From assembly GCF_900291975.1 (NCBI RefSeq), contig NZ_OMPN01000001.1, positions 1,798,001-1,862,000 of the forward strand: a DNA stretch of 64,000 nucleotides. The letters are read 5' to 3'. The DNA comes from Agathobaculum massiliense. Its GTDB lineage: Bacteria > Bacillota > Clostridia > Oscillospirales > Butyricicoccaceae. The translations under genes were made by a program, and so were the position numbers. Numbering within the stretch: the stretch's first letter is position 1; the number at the start of each line of letters is the position of its first letter. The notes under the pieces were generated by a model that did no database searches, had not been told where the DNA came from, and was given only the letters and a program-made list of their open reading frames with translations. This document shows, piece after piece, positions 23,831 through 44,146 of this stretch.

Positions 23831-24003
23831 AGGAAAAAGCCGCGCGGCTTGCCGAAGGAGCAAAACTCTCAGGTGTCCGGTTTTCCGGATGAGGACTGTA
23901 AACGGATGCGGCTCTGGAGAACGCCCCGCAGGGGGGCTGCCGAAGGTGCAACGCGTGCGGCTGGGGGCCGCGCGCCAATCTCTCAGGCAAAAGGACAGAG
24001 TTT
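23831..24003 (+). promoter_or_regulatory. Tandem glycine riboswitch (gcvT motif)
   Basis: Two glycine aptamers in series. The first holds GCCGAAGGAGCAA and ACTCTCAGGT (about 23831-23908). The second holds GCTGCCGAAGGTGCAA and TCTCTCAGGCAAAAGGACAG (about 23910-24003), with the usual CTCTGGAGA at its 5' side. An intrinsic terminator lies downstream before the start codon. Tandem glycine aptamers usually switch genes on when glycine is plentiful. Here they control an AGCS amino-acid symporter. Confidence 0.93.
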
Positions 24004-24065
24004 GGGGACTAATCGGGCACGGGCCGGCGCTTTGCGCGCGGCGCGGCGTCCGTTCGTTTTCTGTG

Positions 24066-39478: not shown

Positions 39479-40882
39479 TCAAATATCCTTCGCACGGCGG
39501 TAGCGGCGCCACTCCGCGAGCGCTTCCCGCCGCAGGGCGAACACGCCGACCAGGTTGGGCAGCGCCATCAGCCCGTTGAACGTATCCGAAAGCGCCCAGG
39601 CCAGGTCGAGCCGCATCGTGCAGCCGAGAGCAGCCGCGGCGATGAACAGTGCCTTGTAAAGCAGCGCGGACCGGCTGCCGAACAGGTACTCAGCCGCCCG
39701 CTGTCCATAATAGGACCAGCCGAGCAGGGTGGAAAACGCGAACAGCACCAGCGATACCGCGACAAAGCCGCCGCCGAGCGGGCCGAACACGGTAGAGAAC
39801 GCCGCGGCGGTGAGCGCGGCGCCGGTCTGGAGTTGGGCGAGCAGCGGCGTACCCGCGGCAAGGCCGTACTGCGCGGCGTCGTAAACGCCGGAGGTCAGGA
39901 TGACCAGCGCGGTCACGGTACACATCACGATCGTGTCGAAAAACACCTCGAATACCGCCCACATCCCCTGCTCGCACGGCTCTTTGGCATCCGCCGCAGC
40001 ATGCACCATGACGGAAGAACCCAAGCCGGCCTCGTTGGAAAACACGCCGCGCGATACGCCGATGCGGATGGCCTGCGCCATGCCGTAGCCCAGCACGCCG
40101 CCCGCGCCCGCCTGCCAGTCGAACGCGCAGGCGACGATTTGTCCACAGGCCTGTGGAAGCGCAGCGCGGCCGTGCCACAGCACGGCCAGCGCACCGGCCA
40201 TATAGAACAGCGCCATAAACGGGACCAGGGCTTCGGTCACGCGGGAGATACGCTTCAGCCCGCCCAGCATGACTGCGCCGAGCAACACGGCGGTCGCCAG
40301 ACCGGTCGCGGGGGGCGGCACGCGGAACACGTTGGACAGGCCGCTGGCGATCGAGTTGCACTGGCTCATATTGCCGATGCCGAACGAGGCAAGGACGCAG
40401 AAAAGCGCGAACGCCGCGGCAAGGAACGGGCTGTGCAGCCCGTTCTTGAGATACAGCATGGGGCCGCCGCGCCAGGCCCCGTCCGGTCCGCGCTCGCGGT
40501 ACAGCATGCCGAGCGTGTTCTCCGCGAACGCGGTCATCATGCCGAAAAAGGCGGATACCCACATCCAGAACACCGCGCCCGGCCCGCCAATGGTCAGGGC
40601 GGTGGCCACGCCCGCGATATTGCCCGTACCGACCGTCGCGGCCAGCGCGGTACACATGGTCGCAAAGGGGGAGACCGCGTTTTTCGAGCTGGTGCGCCGC
40701 GCCGCACCGGAAAAGCAGGAGAGCAGCGTCTTGCGCAGCCACAGGCCGGTATAGCGCACCTGGAACAGGCCGGTGCGCACGGTGAAATAGATGCCCGTAC
40801 CGGTGAGCAGCACCAGCATGGGTACGCCCCATACAAATGCGCGCACCATTTCGTTCATCAGCGCGATTTTGTCAAGCATCAT
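39479..40882 (-). CDS. Sodium:alanine/glycine symporter (AGCS family), second copy
   Basis: A 467-residue paralogue of the symporter at 24132. It keeps the AGCS motifs TALAATVGTGNIAGVATAL near residue 80 and GVFSNEAGLGSSVMVHAAA near residue 285. Unlike the first copy it has no glycine riboswitch: its start is only about 60 bases from the divergent queuosine-operon promoter. The two copies are clearly diverged, so they probably differ in substrate or regulation. Confidence 0.92.
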   Translation of the reverse strand: MMLDKIALMNEMVRAFVWGVPMLVLLTGTGIYFTVRTGLFQVRYTGLWLRKTLLSCFSGAARRTSSKNAVSPFATMCTALAATVGTGNIAGVATALTIGGPGAVFWMWVSAFFGMMTAFAENTLGMLYRERGPDGAWRGGPMLYLKNGLHSPFLAAAFALFCVLASFGIGNMSQCNSIASGLSNVFRVPPPATGLATAVLLGAVMLGGLKRISRVTEALVPFMALFYMAGALAVLWHGRAALPQACGQIVACAFDWQAGAGGVLGYGMAQAIRIGVSRGVFSNEAGLGSSVMVHAAADAKEPCEQGMWAVFEVFFDTIVMCTVTALVILTSGVYDAAQYGLAAGTPLLAQLQTGAALTAAAFSTVFGPLGGGFVAVSLVLFAFSTLLGWSYYGQRAAEYLFGSRSALLYKALFIAAAALGCTMRLDLAWALSDTFNGLMALPNLVGVFALRREALAEWRRYRRAKDI

Positions 40883-40921
40883 GGAATTCCCCCTTGTTCA
40901 GCGTCCATCCTAACTATATGC

Positions 40922-40949
40922 TTGACTTTCCGGTGAAATCCGCTATAAT
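40922..40949 (+). promoter_or_regulatory. Promoter of the queuosine-salvage operon
   Basis: TTGACT (40922-40927), 16 bases, perfect TATAAT (40944-40949). Transcription would begin near 40956, a dozen bases before the riboswitch. Confidence 0.75.
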
Positions 40950-40968
40950 GGAAAAGCAACTGAAGAAC

Positions 40969-41009
40969 AGACAGTTCGGAACCATCCTGTCTATAAACAA
41001 AACTACGGG
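40969..41009 (+). promoter_or_regulatory. preQ1-I-type riboswitch candidate
   Basis: Stem AGACAG (40969-40974) and CTGTCT (40987-40992) enclose a 12-base loop TTCGGAACCATC, followed by the A-rich tail ATAAACAAAACTACGGG (40993-41009). The layout matches class I preQ1 aptamers: short P1, 12-base loop opening with UUC, then an AUAAAxAAACUA-like tail that folds back as a pseudoknot; loop UUCG could pair with CGGG. The downstream genes (radical SAM plus YhhQ transporter) fit queuosine-precursor control. The match was made by eye from the known consensus. Confidence 0.78.
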
Positions 41010-41279
41010 AAAGGCTTCGATCGAAACGGAGTTCCGGTCGGGGCGGGCTGCGCCGCACAGTGCAGTACGCGGGAAAAGCCCAAGCGCGATTTTGCACGCC
41101 GCAAAAACGGCATGCAGAACCGTTGCCTTGTATCAAAAATCAGGCGCACGTCCTGGCTTTTGATGAAAATTTGTATGCTGCGCAAATATGCAAATTTTCT
41201 GTCGGATATGCGCCTTGCGGCGCGGTGATGGTGTACCGTTACGGTGCGCCTTATTTTTTTGCAAAAGGGAGGGGGATCG
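41010..41279 (+). other. Long structured leader between riboswitch and start codon
   Basis: About 270 bases without a credible gene. It holds two strong hairpins, 41133-41144 with 41152-41163 (12 positions, one mismatch) and 41165-41177 with 41187-41199 (13 pairs). A GC hairpin with T7 follows (GGCGC 41219-41223, GCGCC 41246-41250, T-run 41254-41260), resembling a terminator seven bases before the GGGAGGGGG ribosome site. preQ1-I switches usually act within about 50 bases, so the length is unusual. Confidence 0.6.
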
Positions 41280-41993
41280 GTGGAACTGACCCGCTATTCG
41301 GTGATCGAGGGCAAGAACCCGCGCGAGATCGTGCTGCTGCGCGGCCGCGGCTGCGCGTGGCGGCGCTGCAAGTTCTGCGATTACCATTTGGACGCATCGC
41401 GCGATGAGCAGGCCAATCTTGCGCTCAACCGGAAGGCATTGTCTCAGGTCATGGGTGTGTTCGGCCGGCTGGAGGCAATCAACTCCGGCTCATTCGCGGA
41501 GCTGGACGAATCCACTGTGCGCGAGATCGAGCGCGTCTGCCGCGAAAAAGGCGTCCGCGACCTGCACATCGAGAGCCATTGGCTGTTCCGAAGGACGCTT
41601 CCCGCCCTGCGCGCGCGGTTTTCAGCGCAGGGCGTGCGGCTGCACGTCAAGATCGGTGTCGAGACGTTCGACGCGGACTACCGCGAGCGCGTGCTGGACA
41701 AGGGCATCGATGCGGCCGATCCCGCTGAAATCGCGGCCGATTTCGATGACTGCTGCCTGCTGTTCGGCCTGGCCGGACAGACCGCGGAGAGCATGGCGCG
41801 CGATATCCGCACGGGCCTTGCCTATTTCGACCGAGTATGCGTCAACATCATGGTTCCGAACACCACGTCTGTCAAGCCGGATCAGGCGGCACGGGACGCC
41901 TTTATCCATCAGGTGTATCCGCTCTATCGGGATGAGCCCCGCGTGGACATCCTGCTGGACAACACGGACTTTGGTGTAGGAGAACTGGAATGA
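41280..41993 (+). CDS. Radical-SAM protein with CX4CX2C motif, QueL-like candidate
   Basis: A 237-residue protein. Near residue 25 it has GCAWRRCKFCDY, three cysteines spaced CX4CX2C, not the canonical CX3CX2C. The rest looks like a compact radical-SAM barrel (LEAINSGSFAELD, DLHIESHW, VKIGVETFD, LLFGLAGQT). The GTG start at 41280 follows GGGAGGGGG. It overlaps the YhhQ-type transporter gene by four bases and lies behind a preQ1-I-type riboswitch. It may therefore be QueL, the radical-SAM enzyme reported to convert queuine to preQ1 in gut Clostridia. The family is visible; the QueL assignment is inference from context. Confidence 0.7.
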   Translation: MELTRYSVIEGKNPREIVLLRGRGCAWRRCKFCDYHLDASRDEQANLALNRKALSQVMGVFGRLEAINSGSFAELDESTVREIERVCREKGVRDLHIESHWLFRRTLPALRARFSAQGVRLHVKIGVETFDADYRERVLDKGIDAADPAEIAADFDDCCLLFGLAGQTAESMARDIRTGLAYFDRVCVNIMVPNTTSVKPDQAARDAFIHQVYPLYRDEPRVDILLDNTDFGVGELE

Positions 41994-42706
41994 CAAATGA
42001 AATTTTACTGGCGGTTTCGCTCGTTGTGCTGTATGGGACGGTGCTTCTGTGGTTTTACCTGTTCGGTACGGGCGGGATGATGGCGTTCACGGTGTTTGCG
42101 ACGATCGCGGCAAACATCGAGGTGATGATTTTGGTGGATGCGTTCGGCATGGAGATGACGCTCGGCAACATCCTGTTCGCAACGACGTTCCTTGTGACCG
42201 ATATCCTGAGCGAGGTCGCGGGGAAAAAGACCGCGCAGCGTGCGGTTTGGGCGGGCATCGCGGCAAACGTGCTGTTTATCCTCGTCTCGCAGTCCTGGCT
42301 GCTGTATGCGCCGTCGGTGAACGACTGGGCGCAGGAGCCGATGCGGGCGGTGTTTTCCAATACGCCGCGCATGATGCTTTCCTCGCTTGCGGTATACGCG
42401 GTCGCGCAGATCTTCGACGTCTGGCTTTACCATAAATGGTGGGCCTTTACTGAAAAGCGCACGGGCGACCACCGCGCGTTCCTCTGGCTGCGCAACAATG
42501 GTTCGACGCTGGTTTCCCAGCTCGTCAACACGGTTCTGTTTACCGCGCTGGCATTCTGGGGAACGTATGACATGCCGACGCTGCTGTCAGTCGCGCTGTC
42601 GAGCTATGTAATCTTTATTTTTACCTCGCTGCTGGATACGCCGGTCGTATACGCGGCGCGGCGGCTGTATGAGAAAAAAATGGGCCGCGCGGCGCAGGAG
42701 GATTGA
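41990..42706 (+). CDS. yhhQ: Queuosine-precursor transporter, YhhQ/VUT family
   Basis: Membrane protein of 238 residues with about six hydrophobic segments. Family features are TLGNILFATTFLVTDILSEVAGKKTAQRAV (positions about 58-87), with the conserved DILSE, and LRNNGSTLVSQLVNTVLFTA near residue 165. YhhQ proteins import preQ0, preQ1 or queuine. Its ATG overlaps the stop of the radical-SAM gene (ATGA), so they are translated together. Both stand under the preQ1-I-type leader. Confidence 0.9.
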   Translation: MTNEILLAVSLVVLYGTVLLWFYLFGTGGMMAFTVFATIAANIEVMILVDAFGMEMTLGNILFATTFLVTDILSEVAGKKTAQRAVWAGIAANVLFILVSQSWLLYAPSVNDWAQEPMRAVFSNTPRMMLSSLAVYAVAQIFDVWLYHKWWAFTEKRTGDHRAFLWLRNNGSTLVSQLVNTVLFTALAFWGTYDMPTLLSVALSSYVIFIFTSLLDTPVVYAARRLYEKKMGRAAQED

Positions 42707-42770
42707 CTGGTTTGCGTTTCCGCTTTGGCGAAAGCGGGGAAGCTGCGCCTGCGCGGCGCGGGCGGACAAG

Positions 42771-42801
42771 AGGGGAGAAACCAACGGTTTCTCCCCTTTT
42801 C
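42771..42801 (+). terminator. Terminator of the queuosine-salvage operon
   Basis: AGGGGAGAAACC (42771-42782) pairs with GGTTTCTCCCCT (42786-42797), then T-rich tail. It marks the last host feature before the mobile element. Confidence 0.9.
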
Positions 42802-42850
42802 ACTCAAAATCCCCTATTTTTGCGGCTCTTGAGGTACTTTGCAGATGGTA

Positions 42851-42868
42851 TACACCATTGTTACACCA
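42851..42868. repeat. Short direct repeat near the element end
   Basis: TACACCA occurs twice, at 42851-42857 and 42862-42868, an 11-base (one helical turn) period, between the integrase stop and the host. It could be an integrase-binding site; chance cannot be excluded. Confidence 0.3.
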
Positions 42869-42873
42869 ATCCG

Positions 42874-44049
42874 CTACATGGCTTCAAGCAGCCTTTCCGC
42901 CTCGGCCCTCTCACTTTCAAGCGCATGGATATAGGTATTATAAGTGGTTGAAATATTCGCATGCCCCATCCACTTGCTTACCACGCTGATCGCAACGCCC
43001 GCTTTTAATGCGCGGGTCGCAAATGTGTGCCTGAGCTGATGGATTGTCAGCGGCTTGTCGATACCAGCGTGCTTTAACATACGGGCCAGCAGGCGGTGTA
43101 TCCGTTCGTTGTTCAAAGGCGTATTGTTTTTTGAACTCGCTACATTGTCACTTGTAATACCATACTTTTTATAAATGGCTTTCAGATTTTTCAGCGCTTG
43201 TACAGCCTTACTATTTAATGGGACGGTGCGTTTACCGCTTTCTGTTTTTGTGCTTTTTACATGGTTAATATGCCTGGAACCGCTTTTACCCTGTCCGCGG
43301 TCTTTGATCCGCGCCAAATTCCTGCTTACTGTCACTGTTTTCCGCTTAAAGTCTATATCAGACCATTTGAGAGCAAGCACCTCGCCGCACCGCAGGCCGG
43401 TATGGACGATAAATATAATCAAATTGGCATGGGTCAGTACCGGCCGGCCGTTTTTGTTTTTCAAATTTGCGGTTTCTTCCAGCCTGCAGACTTCTTCATC
43501 TTCCAGCACAAGGATTTTCCTGGGCGGCTTGAAAAGCCCCTTTTTCAGCATAACCACATTATTTACAGGATTTTTGGCTATATCACCCTCTGTATAAGCG
43601 TACCGGAACACCTCGGCAAGCAGCGCACGGATTTTCTTTACGACTGTGTAGGAATACTGGCCGCTTTTTGTGTTCAGAAGCCTTTGAATATCAGCCGCTT
43701 TTATACTTCCAAGCTGGCAATATCCCAATACTGGTTCGATATGGTTTCTGTAAACTGCTTCGTACTGGTCAAAGGTGCTGCGCTCTACGGCATGGAACTT
43801 AAATGTATAAAGCCATTTCTCCATATACTCCCTGAAAAAGACTTTTTTACATTCAGAAATACCGCGCGCTGCATCCCGCTTCAACTCCCGCAGCCTGCGC
43901 TTTACTTCAGCTTCGGTTTTTCCATACAGGTACCGCGGTTTGGACATTGCTTCATCACGGTATTTTGCAACCCAGCGGCCGTCTTTCCGCTGGTAGATAC
44001 TTCCCTCCCCATAACTACGGCTTTTCTGCTTTTTATCTGTTGTACTCAT
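42874..44049 (-). CDS. int: Tyrosine integrase of Tn916 type
   Basis: Site-specific recombinase that excises and inserts the element (391 residues). An N-terminal AP2-like arm-binding domain (GEGSIYQRKDGRWVAKYRD) is followed by a SAM-like core-binding domain (about 75-165). The catalytic domain has arginine in TGLRCGEVLAL, histidine-arginine in HQLRHTFATRA, and the WMGHANISTTYNTYIH end with the nucleophilic tyrosine. Start 44049 follows GAGCGGA; the in-frame ATG at 44091 is less likely. The stop lies about 70 bases from the host terminator. Confidence 0.94.
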   Translation of the reverse strand: MSTTDKKQKSRSYGEGSIYQRKDGRWVAKYRDEAMSKPRYLYGKTEAEVKRRLRELKRDAARGISECKKVFFREYMEKWLYTFKFHAVERSTFDQYEAVYRNHIEPVLGYCQLGSIKAADIQRLLNTKSGQYSYTVVKKIRALLAEVFRYAYTEGDIAKNPVNNVVMLKKGLFKPPRKILVLEDEEVCRLEETANLKNKNGRPVLTHANLIIFIVHTGLRCGEVLALKWSDIDFKRKTVTVSRNLARIKDRGQGKSGSRHINHVKSTKTESGKRTVPLNSKAVQALKNLKAIYKKYGITSDNVASSKNNTPLNNERIHRLLARMLKHAGIDKPLTIHQLRHTFATRALKAGVAISVVSKWMGHANISTTYNTYIHALESERAEAERLLEAM

Positions 44050-44146
44050 ATTTATCCGCTCCTGTTCAGCAAAGGCGGCAGCGTACAACAACTAACATAG
44101 TTATTATACGCCATGCAGCCCTTTCAAAGCAACGCCCATGCCCCAA

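Follow-up and report, generated by a model that had tools for sequence, protein, structure and literature searches.

A very probable preQ1-repressed queuine salvage operon, queL-yhhQ, behind a preQ1-I aptamer that scores below the Rfam cut-off

Control of queL and yhhQ by preQ1 riboswitches is already known in bacteria that salvage queuosine (Q) precursors, in which such switches are reported to control yhhQ, queT, qrtT, queL and queK (PMC12519234). Among these systems is the queK-qrtT-queL operon of Clostridioides difficile, which lies behind a preQ1-I riboswitch (PMC11477304). Within the preQ1-I class, type I aptamers such as that of Carnobacterium antarcticum are recognised by a UU after the 5' strand of stem P1, a UC before its 3' strand and a conserved C in the tail (PMC11625349, PMC8752633), and the type I examples in Table 1 of PMC11625349 are listed solely under indirect occlusion of the Shine-Dalgarno (SD) sequence, that is, as translational switches. 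Here we analyse positions 40922-42706 of a 64,000-nucleotide (nt) stretch of Agathobaculum massiliense DNA (hereafter, the window), in which a promoter and a leader of ~320 nt precede two genes, queL and yhhQ.

The locus shares with the C. difficile operon (PMC11477304) a preQ1-I aptamer, the joining of QueL and a transporter in one operon, and salvage in place of de novo synthesis. It differs in carrying a YhhQ/QPTR protein instead of the energy-coupling factor (ECF) component QrtT, and in being a two-gene unit with an ATGA overlap and no queK beside the pair, as judged by Pfam searches of the neighbouring genes. With the C. antarcticum aptamer it has in common the UU...UC loop signature, the tail C and the A-rich loop 3 (PMC8752633, PMC11625349). 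Unlike the listed type I examples, which act on translation (PMC11625349), it has a terminator-like hairpin and a proposed anti-terminator, and its P1 is one fixed sequence in all 70 QueL-linked copies tallied. Since PMC12519234 reports preQ1 riboswitches controlling queL and yhhQ, the operon adds an example to a known kind, and the parts worth following are the switch lineage, its terminator platform and a replacement for QueF. We consider it very probable that this is a preQ1-repressed queuine salvage operon, a reading built on gene identities, gene neighbourhood, the signature residues of the aptamer, a terminator-like hairpin, a conserved GAUGG and the lack of QueC, QueD and QueF hits, all taken from sequence. 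Its features are as follows.

40922..40949, forward strand: sigma-70-type promoter, TTGACT-16-TATAAT (promoter scan; 11 of 12 consensus positions matched)
40969..40992, forward strand: P1 hairpin of the preQ1-I aptamer, AGACAG and CUGUCU (6 base pairs, bp) enclosing the 12-nt loop UUCGGAACCAUC (sequence; covariance model R1; RF00522 below cut-off)
40981..40986, forward strand: ACCAUC in the aptamer loop, proposed 5' strand of the anti-terminator (complementary to 41227-41232)
40993..41008, forward strand: A-rich loop 3 and CUA tail of the aptamer (A41002, C41003, U41004, A41005), 3' half of the pseudoknot (sequence)
41013..41226, forward strand: hairpin-rich leader segment, including a repeat copy at 41130-41169 (second genomic copy; covarying stem)
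41227..41232, forward strand: GAUGGU, proposed anti-aptamer or anti-terminator strand, overlapping the 5' arm of the terminator (GATGG enrichment in leaders)
41230..41260, forward strand: terminator-like hairpin GGTGTACCGTTACGGTGCGCC (41230-41250) followed by a T tract (terminator scan; G-C in 6 of its 9 pairs)
41264..41275, forward strand: SD-like sequence AAAGGGAGGGGG for queL (read off the sequence)
41280..41993, forward strand: queL, assigned as a radical-SAM queuine lyase of 237 amino acids (aa) (phmmer match to 6p78; conserved cysteines)
41990..41993, forward strand: ATGA, stop/start overlap of queL and yhhQ (sequence)
41990..42706, forward strand: yhhQ (QPTR, COG1738), assigned as a queuosine-precursor importer of 238 aa (PF02592, E 1e-45; TIGR00697)

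The queL start is most likely the GTG at 41280, a longer reading being available from 41244. Comparison of its product with solved structures by phmmer gave one strong match, 6p78_A, which is named queuine lyase (E 4.9e-50, residues 3-235 of 237, ~40% identity). A CX4CX2C motif occupies residues 25-33, and its C25, C30 and C33 do not vary across an alignment of 13 sequences, that of 6p78 among them. Full-length homology and the radical-SAM cysteine motif together assign the protein to QueL, with sequence divergence as its only difference from the solved enzyme; the general Pfam Radical_SAM model did not reach its cut-off (12.9 vs 29.5 bits). YhhQ scored above the cut-offs of the NCBIfam queuosine precursor transporter TIGR00697 (169.3 vs 50.95 bits) and of Pfam PF02592 (156.3 vs 27.2 bits). 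The original prediction, made from the letters of this DNA, had named a QueL-like radical-SAM gene overlapping a YhhQ-family gene behind a promoter at 40922-40949, and each of these elements was borne out: the similarity check did not place the radical-SAM protein elsewhere, the overlap is a 4-nt ATGA, and the promoter is close to consensus. Two promoter-like sites were found in the scan of 40800-42900 against 0.8 +/- 1.0 expected, and a similar promoter was seen by eye ahead of the aptamer in many leaders of relatives.

When 87 genomes of the family were searched, 38 gave a match to QueL, which was weak in one case (G083, E 1.6e-5, 29% identity; G and L numbers are our labels for genomes and loci). 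A scan of named genomes gave 233 QueL relatives; we retained the best 80 and examined 79, L059 being excluded as it was cut at the gene start. In 74 of these 79 loci yhhQ lies immediately 3' of queL, and 38 of these 74 share the ATGA at the end of queL, which makes translational coupling of the two genes plausible; the window yhhQ also has an SD-like sequence of its own. In 69 of the 79 loci the same aptamer precedes queL, at a distance of 111-433 nt. Among the five loci in which yhhQ does not directly follow is L042 (4579-4622), from an Agathobaculum relative, where queL has no upstream aptamer and yhhQ stands apart behind its own aptamer copy (62.2 bits).

The window genome encodes a TGT (E 4.7e-161) with GGLAVGE and FDECIE, which by our residue mapping would correspond to Val233 and Cys158, the residues that mark the bacterial preQ1-type TGT (PMC3660597). 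QueF, QueC and QueD were not found in this genome at E 0.001, by searches that were positive in 8, 12 and 9 of 14 control genomes. A preQ1-type TGT in a genome where these de novo preQ1 genes were not found is the pattern of indirect salvage, and the queuosine/queuine salvage operon of the original prediction is supported by the 6p78 match, by the pairing of the two genes in 74 of 79 loci and by the missing QueC, QueD and QueF hits. In the scheme that we infer, YhhQ would bring in a precursor of queuosine, with the queuine base as its likeliest cargo, and QueL, acting as a radical-SAM lyase, would remove the cyclopentenediol side chain from queuine to give preQ1, which the TGT would insert into tRNA. 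Plentiful preQ1 would fold the type I aptamer at the 5' end of the transcript, so that the terminator ahead of queL forms and both genes are turned off; when preQ1 is scarce, either ACCAUC or the CUA tail would pair with the GAUGGU in the 5' arm of the terminator and permit read-through.

The aptamer layout claimed in the original prediction, a 6-bp stem with a 12-nt loop and an A-rich tail, is present, and the whole architecture (P1, 12-nt loop, A-rich loop 3 and CUA-containing tail), together with homology, places the element in preQ1-I. The loop UUCGGAACCAUC and the tail ACUA carry the UU, UC and tail C of type I. The element also has the residues that make up the two-ligand type I pocket, U6 U7 C8, A12, U16 C17 and A30 C31 U32, the numbering being that of the Carnobacterium structure (PMC8752633) transferred by loop length. 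In our alignment (A2) the tail is strongly conserved, and its residues are among those named for type I.

The original prediction had proposed a covariance search with the Rfam preQ1-I model and counted the lack of a significant score as a refutation; formally, the switch fails this check. The Rfam model (RF00522) gave 19.4 bits (E 0.75) on 40966-41012, below the gathering score of 39, and the aptamer was not listed in a whole-window Rfam gathering search, while a second covariance model (R1) matched 40968-41011 with 64.5 bits (E 2.4e-19; R1 E-values are rough owing to a short calibration). The next-best R1 match in the window reached 13.6 bits (E 0.014). R1 was built from 22 aptamers of other genomes, none of them from the window or from genomes labelled Agathobaculum or Butyricicoccus, the labels borne by same-genus relatives of the window genome; some training aptamers come from metagenome-assembled genome (MAG) records of unknown family, and 7 of the 22 have other P1 sequences. 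In the 22-aptamer alignment, 98.5% of P1 cells are paired and the P1 covariation score is 0.488 vs 0.112 in shuffled alignments, a value reached by none of 500 shuffles, with slid controls at or below 0.10; four of the six pairs vary on both sides, a count that 50 of the 500 shuffles attain. Among 28 loci of relatives scanned with the Rfam model, 15 gave sub-threshold preQ1-I matches of 20.3-26.8 bits. Searching 391 Clostridia-class genomes for the exact pattern GACAGTTYGNNACCATCCTGTC located it in 64 of them (71 places; reversed control pattern, 0). RF00522 exceeds its cut-off in 5 of 291 such genomes and gives a match at E 0.001 in 24, in a search whose filters lose some weak matches. Because 5 of 291 genomes pass the cut-off vs 64 of 391 with the aptamer pattern, the cut-off is an annotation limit and not a property of the RNA. 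Rfam was accordingly rejected as sole judge of the aptamer, since its threshold misses a lineage that both the pattern and R1 find, and judged by sequence the window switch is a preQ1-I lineage outside the Rfam threshold. An Rfam search of 40700-42900 up to E 10 returned neither preQ1-III, a class described from related Oscillospiraceae, nor a second known riboswitch in the leader.

Two elements that the original prediction had not included are the terminator-like hairpin at 41230-41250 and the ~270-nt leader that separates the aptamer from queL. Leaving T-rich words aside, no 5-mer is more frequent than GATGG among 49 dereplicated queL leaders (32 of 49), and GRTGG occurs in 33 vs 10.7 +/- 2.8 expected from Markov simulations (maximum 20 in 300 runs). 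TTTTT lies between aptamer and queL in 48 of the 49. When the window transcript was folded as if cut after GAUGGU, five CCAUC-GAUGG pairs formed with probabilities of 0.37-0.87; in the folded leader of L046, GAUGGU pairs instead with the ACUAU tail of the aptamer. Control of the window operon is therefore probably transcriptional, as far as leader sequences can tell, and such a type I platform would depart from the list in PMC11625349, since that list has translational examples.

Several results count against the reading as a preQ1-repressed salvage operon. The searches for Q genes in the window genome covered TGT, QueF, QueC and QueD, but not QueA, QueG/QueH or QueK. YhhQ does not reach the equivalog of the E. 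coli preQ0/preQ1 transporter (39.4 vs 252 bits). No aptamer was found upstream of queL in 10 of the 79 QueL loci, two of which (L073 and L094) have less than 150 nt of upstream DNA. Besides the low RF00522 score in the window, 13 of the 28 relatives' loci gave no preQ1-I match even at E 10, and P1 is absent from the minimum-energy fold of the full leader, which was computed without pseudoknot or ligand. Five terminator-like sites were found in the region vs 2.7 +/- 1.8 expected, which makes the scan weak by itself; GRTGG was not found in 16 of the 49 dereplicated queL leaders and stands at the terminator arm in only 66 of 141 leaders of all genes. Finally, the CCAUC-GAUGG helix is a minority pre-termination state in three of the four leaders folded (0.0, 0.16 and 0.05), and the anti-terminator partner is uncertain for that reason. 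What can safely be said is that GAUGG would be an anti-aptamer strand shared with the terminator, with an uncertain partner strand in the aptamer.

The alternative that survives best concerns the cargo, which is not fixed because YhhQ falls short of the E. coli equivalog even as it passes the cut-off of its family, QPTR/YhhQ (TIGR00697). YhhQ could import preQ1 (or preQ0) and QueL could recycle internal queuine only, the two genes being neighbours since both feed preQ1. The cargo of YhhQ/QPTR proteins is reported to vary, being preQ0/preQ1 in E. coli, q in Chlamydia trachomatis and mixed in Bartonella henselae (PMC11570991), and a yhhQ without a preceding queL is also found behind the aptamer (L042, where it is apart from queL, L174 and L186). 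Against this, the position of yhhQ directly downstream in 74 of 79 QueL loci fits a shared imported substrate, and we regard preQ1 import as possible but distinctly less likely than import of queuine.

It is improbable that the switch acts on translation and that the terminator-like hairpin is incidental. Such a mechanism would agree with Table 1 of PMC11625349, where type I switches are listed by indirect SD occlusion only, and some GACAG-type aptamers (L160 and L161) do run directly into an SD-like sequence. In the window, by contrast, the aptamer ends ~255 nt ahead of the SD-like sequence of queL, with the hairpin and T tract in between, and the TTTTT in 48 of 49 dereplicated leaders likewise falls in the interval between aptamer and queL.

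A feature of the QueL-linked aptamers is their P1, which is GACAG/CUGUC in 70 of 70 copies (69 loci among L031-L110, plus the window). Explanations of this invariance as an artefact of the strict search pattern were rejected: a scan of 30 unmatched loci allowing any 5-bp P1 found 20 aptamers, all with GACAG/CUGUC, and a model with other P1s, applied to the 10 leftover loci (L073 and L094, with their short upstream DNA, among them), found no other P1 upstream of queL. In 24 RF00522 hits across the class, read manually, at least seven other P1 sequences occur and GACAG is present in seven. Anti-terminator pairing was considered as the cause and is not supported, since the partner of GAUGG is the loop and P1 takes no part in that pairing.

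Away from queL, the loci scanned have the aptamer ahead of queT, queC, an operon that contains queD, and queT-queF. Ten downstream proteins from six aptamer loci were identified as QueT (three), an HGD-D protein (two), an activase, QueD, a YhhQ relative, a short-chain dehydrogenase and QueF, and an eleventh, from a seventh locus, as QueC; ten of the eleven, the dehydrogenase being the exception, would belong to the Q pathway, provided that the HGD-D/activase pair belongs to it. The remaining aptamer loci were judged only by likeness to QueL and YhhQ, or were left without identification. That the aptamer senses queuine or another Q derivative instead of preQ1 is very unlikely: it controls a queuine-consuming enzyme, and its P1 is invariant in QueL-linked copies, unlike the P1s of most other preQ1-I switches examined, but the residues named for preQ1 recognition are retained in the pocket and the same aptamer precedes queT, queC and queT-queF, all unrelated to queuine cleavage. 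Least credible of all is that, in place of a queuine lyase, the radical-SAM gene encodes some other deazapurine enzyme akin to archaeosine RaSEA. NCBIfam does show a weak relation to RaSEA (TIGR01210, E 5.7e-8, 32.3 bits vs a cut-off of 212), but the full-length match to 6p78 (E 4.9e-50) is far stronger and the operon context is that of Q salvage.

Some aptamer loci have unusual arrangements. Four Clostridia-class genomes (G145, G286, G327 and G379) each carry two aptamer copies, one with UAACC and the other with UGACC in the loop, before different genes; in G379 the first precedes an HGD-D protein and the second QueT. At L187 (433-1829) two genes stand behind the aptamer, one for a distant relative of YhhQ (PF02592, 74 bits) and one for a short-chain dehydrogenase, which is not a familiar companion of Q genes, and L129 (30-1458) shows the same arrangement by sequence likeness only.

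The hairpin-rich segment of the window leader was not seen in the queL leaders of L016, L017 and L018; most Agathobaculum-labelled queL leaders are ~150-180 nt of hairpins longer than these three. Positions 41130-41169 have a second copy in the window genome at 93% identity (G000:C2:2043288-2043327, L200), 3' of the large signal recognition particle (SRP) RNA and 5' of an apparent dnaX, the latter identified by eye. They belong to a genus-specific repeated hairpin, TNAGGCGCAYGTCCTNA, whose core was located 48 times across 19 of 25 genus genomes (reversed control, 0), the window's own copy differing from the searched core by one base. The repeat is also present at L201-L220. Across 24 distinct contexts, five of its stem pairs change on both sides, and an Rfam scan of 18 loci gave no family above cut-off at the repeat. 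By eye, it usually lies within a hairpin array of ~200 nt that often ends right before a start codon. A strict orientation was rejected, as the core is on the other strand in L214 and L032. In the truncated fold of the window transcript the array closes on itself, and the anti-terminator strands become adjacent.

Immediately past the operon, on the opposite strand, a phage-type integrase (42874-44091; PF00589, E 3.2e-32) may mark the edge of an integrated element. The sole Rfam match above cut-off in the whole window is a glycine riboswitch at 23904-24008 (56.8 bits).

The first genes of several aptamer operons encode an HGD-D protein of 330 aa and an activase of the BadF/HgdC type (L178:530-2747, L221-L234, L113 and others), a pair that in Clostridia-class genomes other than that of the window is often near queC or queD. 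Single-protein searches of 291 Clostridia-class genomes, at thresholds set by us, found QueC in 38 (E 1e-30), HGD-D in 19 (E 1e-40) and QueF in 29 (E 1e-15). Among the 38 QueC-positive genomes, 18 have HGD-D and 20 have QueF, with none having both and none neither (Fisher 3e-11, relatedness ignored). The thresholds may miss some cases, because one genome (G142) has HGD-D and nine have QueF without a QueC match. In 13 of the 18 genomes that have both QueC and HGD-D, no more than 5 kb separates the two genes, and the GACAG aptamer is directly ahead of HGD-D in 9 of the 19 HGD-D genomes. The curated QueF profile likewise gave no match in a set of 14 genomes, all but one of which had been selected for the HGD-D/activase pair; QueC matched strongly in 12 of the 14. 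In 14 further loci, all with HGD-D and activase, an aptamer was seen in four, and cysteines 52, 78 and 282 of HGD-D are invariant in the 15 sequences from these loci and L178. The nearest solved relatives of HGD-D are 7yyl and 6eno (E ~1e-5), listed as dehydratase family proteins, which we take to be double-cubane proteins; the NCBIfam double-cubane model gives 50 bits, well under its cut-off of 350. Among the papers listed by our searches of an open-licence library, none links HGD-D/activase or double-cubane proteins to queuosine. From its distribution and context the pair is an obvious candidate for the reduction of preQ0 to preQ1 where QueF is missing. Taken jointly, and with reasonable though not high confidence, the data point to a large lineage of type I, probably two-ligand, switches in Clostridia that lies below the Rfam cut-off and has a fixed P1 in its QueL-linked copies, to a queL terminator that would tolerate an insertion of ~150-180 nt, and to a regulon indicating a hitherto unrecognised ATP-dependent iron-sulfur preQ0 reductase that may replace QueF in anaerobes.

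The conserved operon indicates how Clostridia in which preQ1 synthesis genes were not detected could subsist on salvaged queuine, which their animal hosts likewise require as a nutrient. As the Rfam preQ1-I cut-off omits most of the copies found here, preQ1-I regulons drawn with that cut-off would be incomplete. If the proposed role of the HGD-D/activase pair is true, a second preQ0 reductase would fill a gap in the queuosine synthesis of anaerobes, and a nitrile would be reduced by an activase-driven iron-sulfur enzyme.

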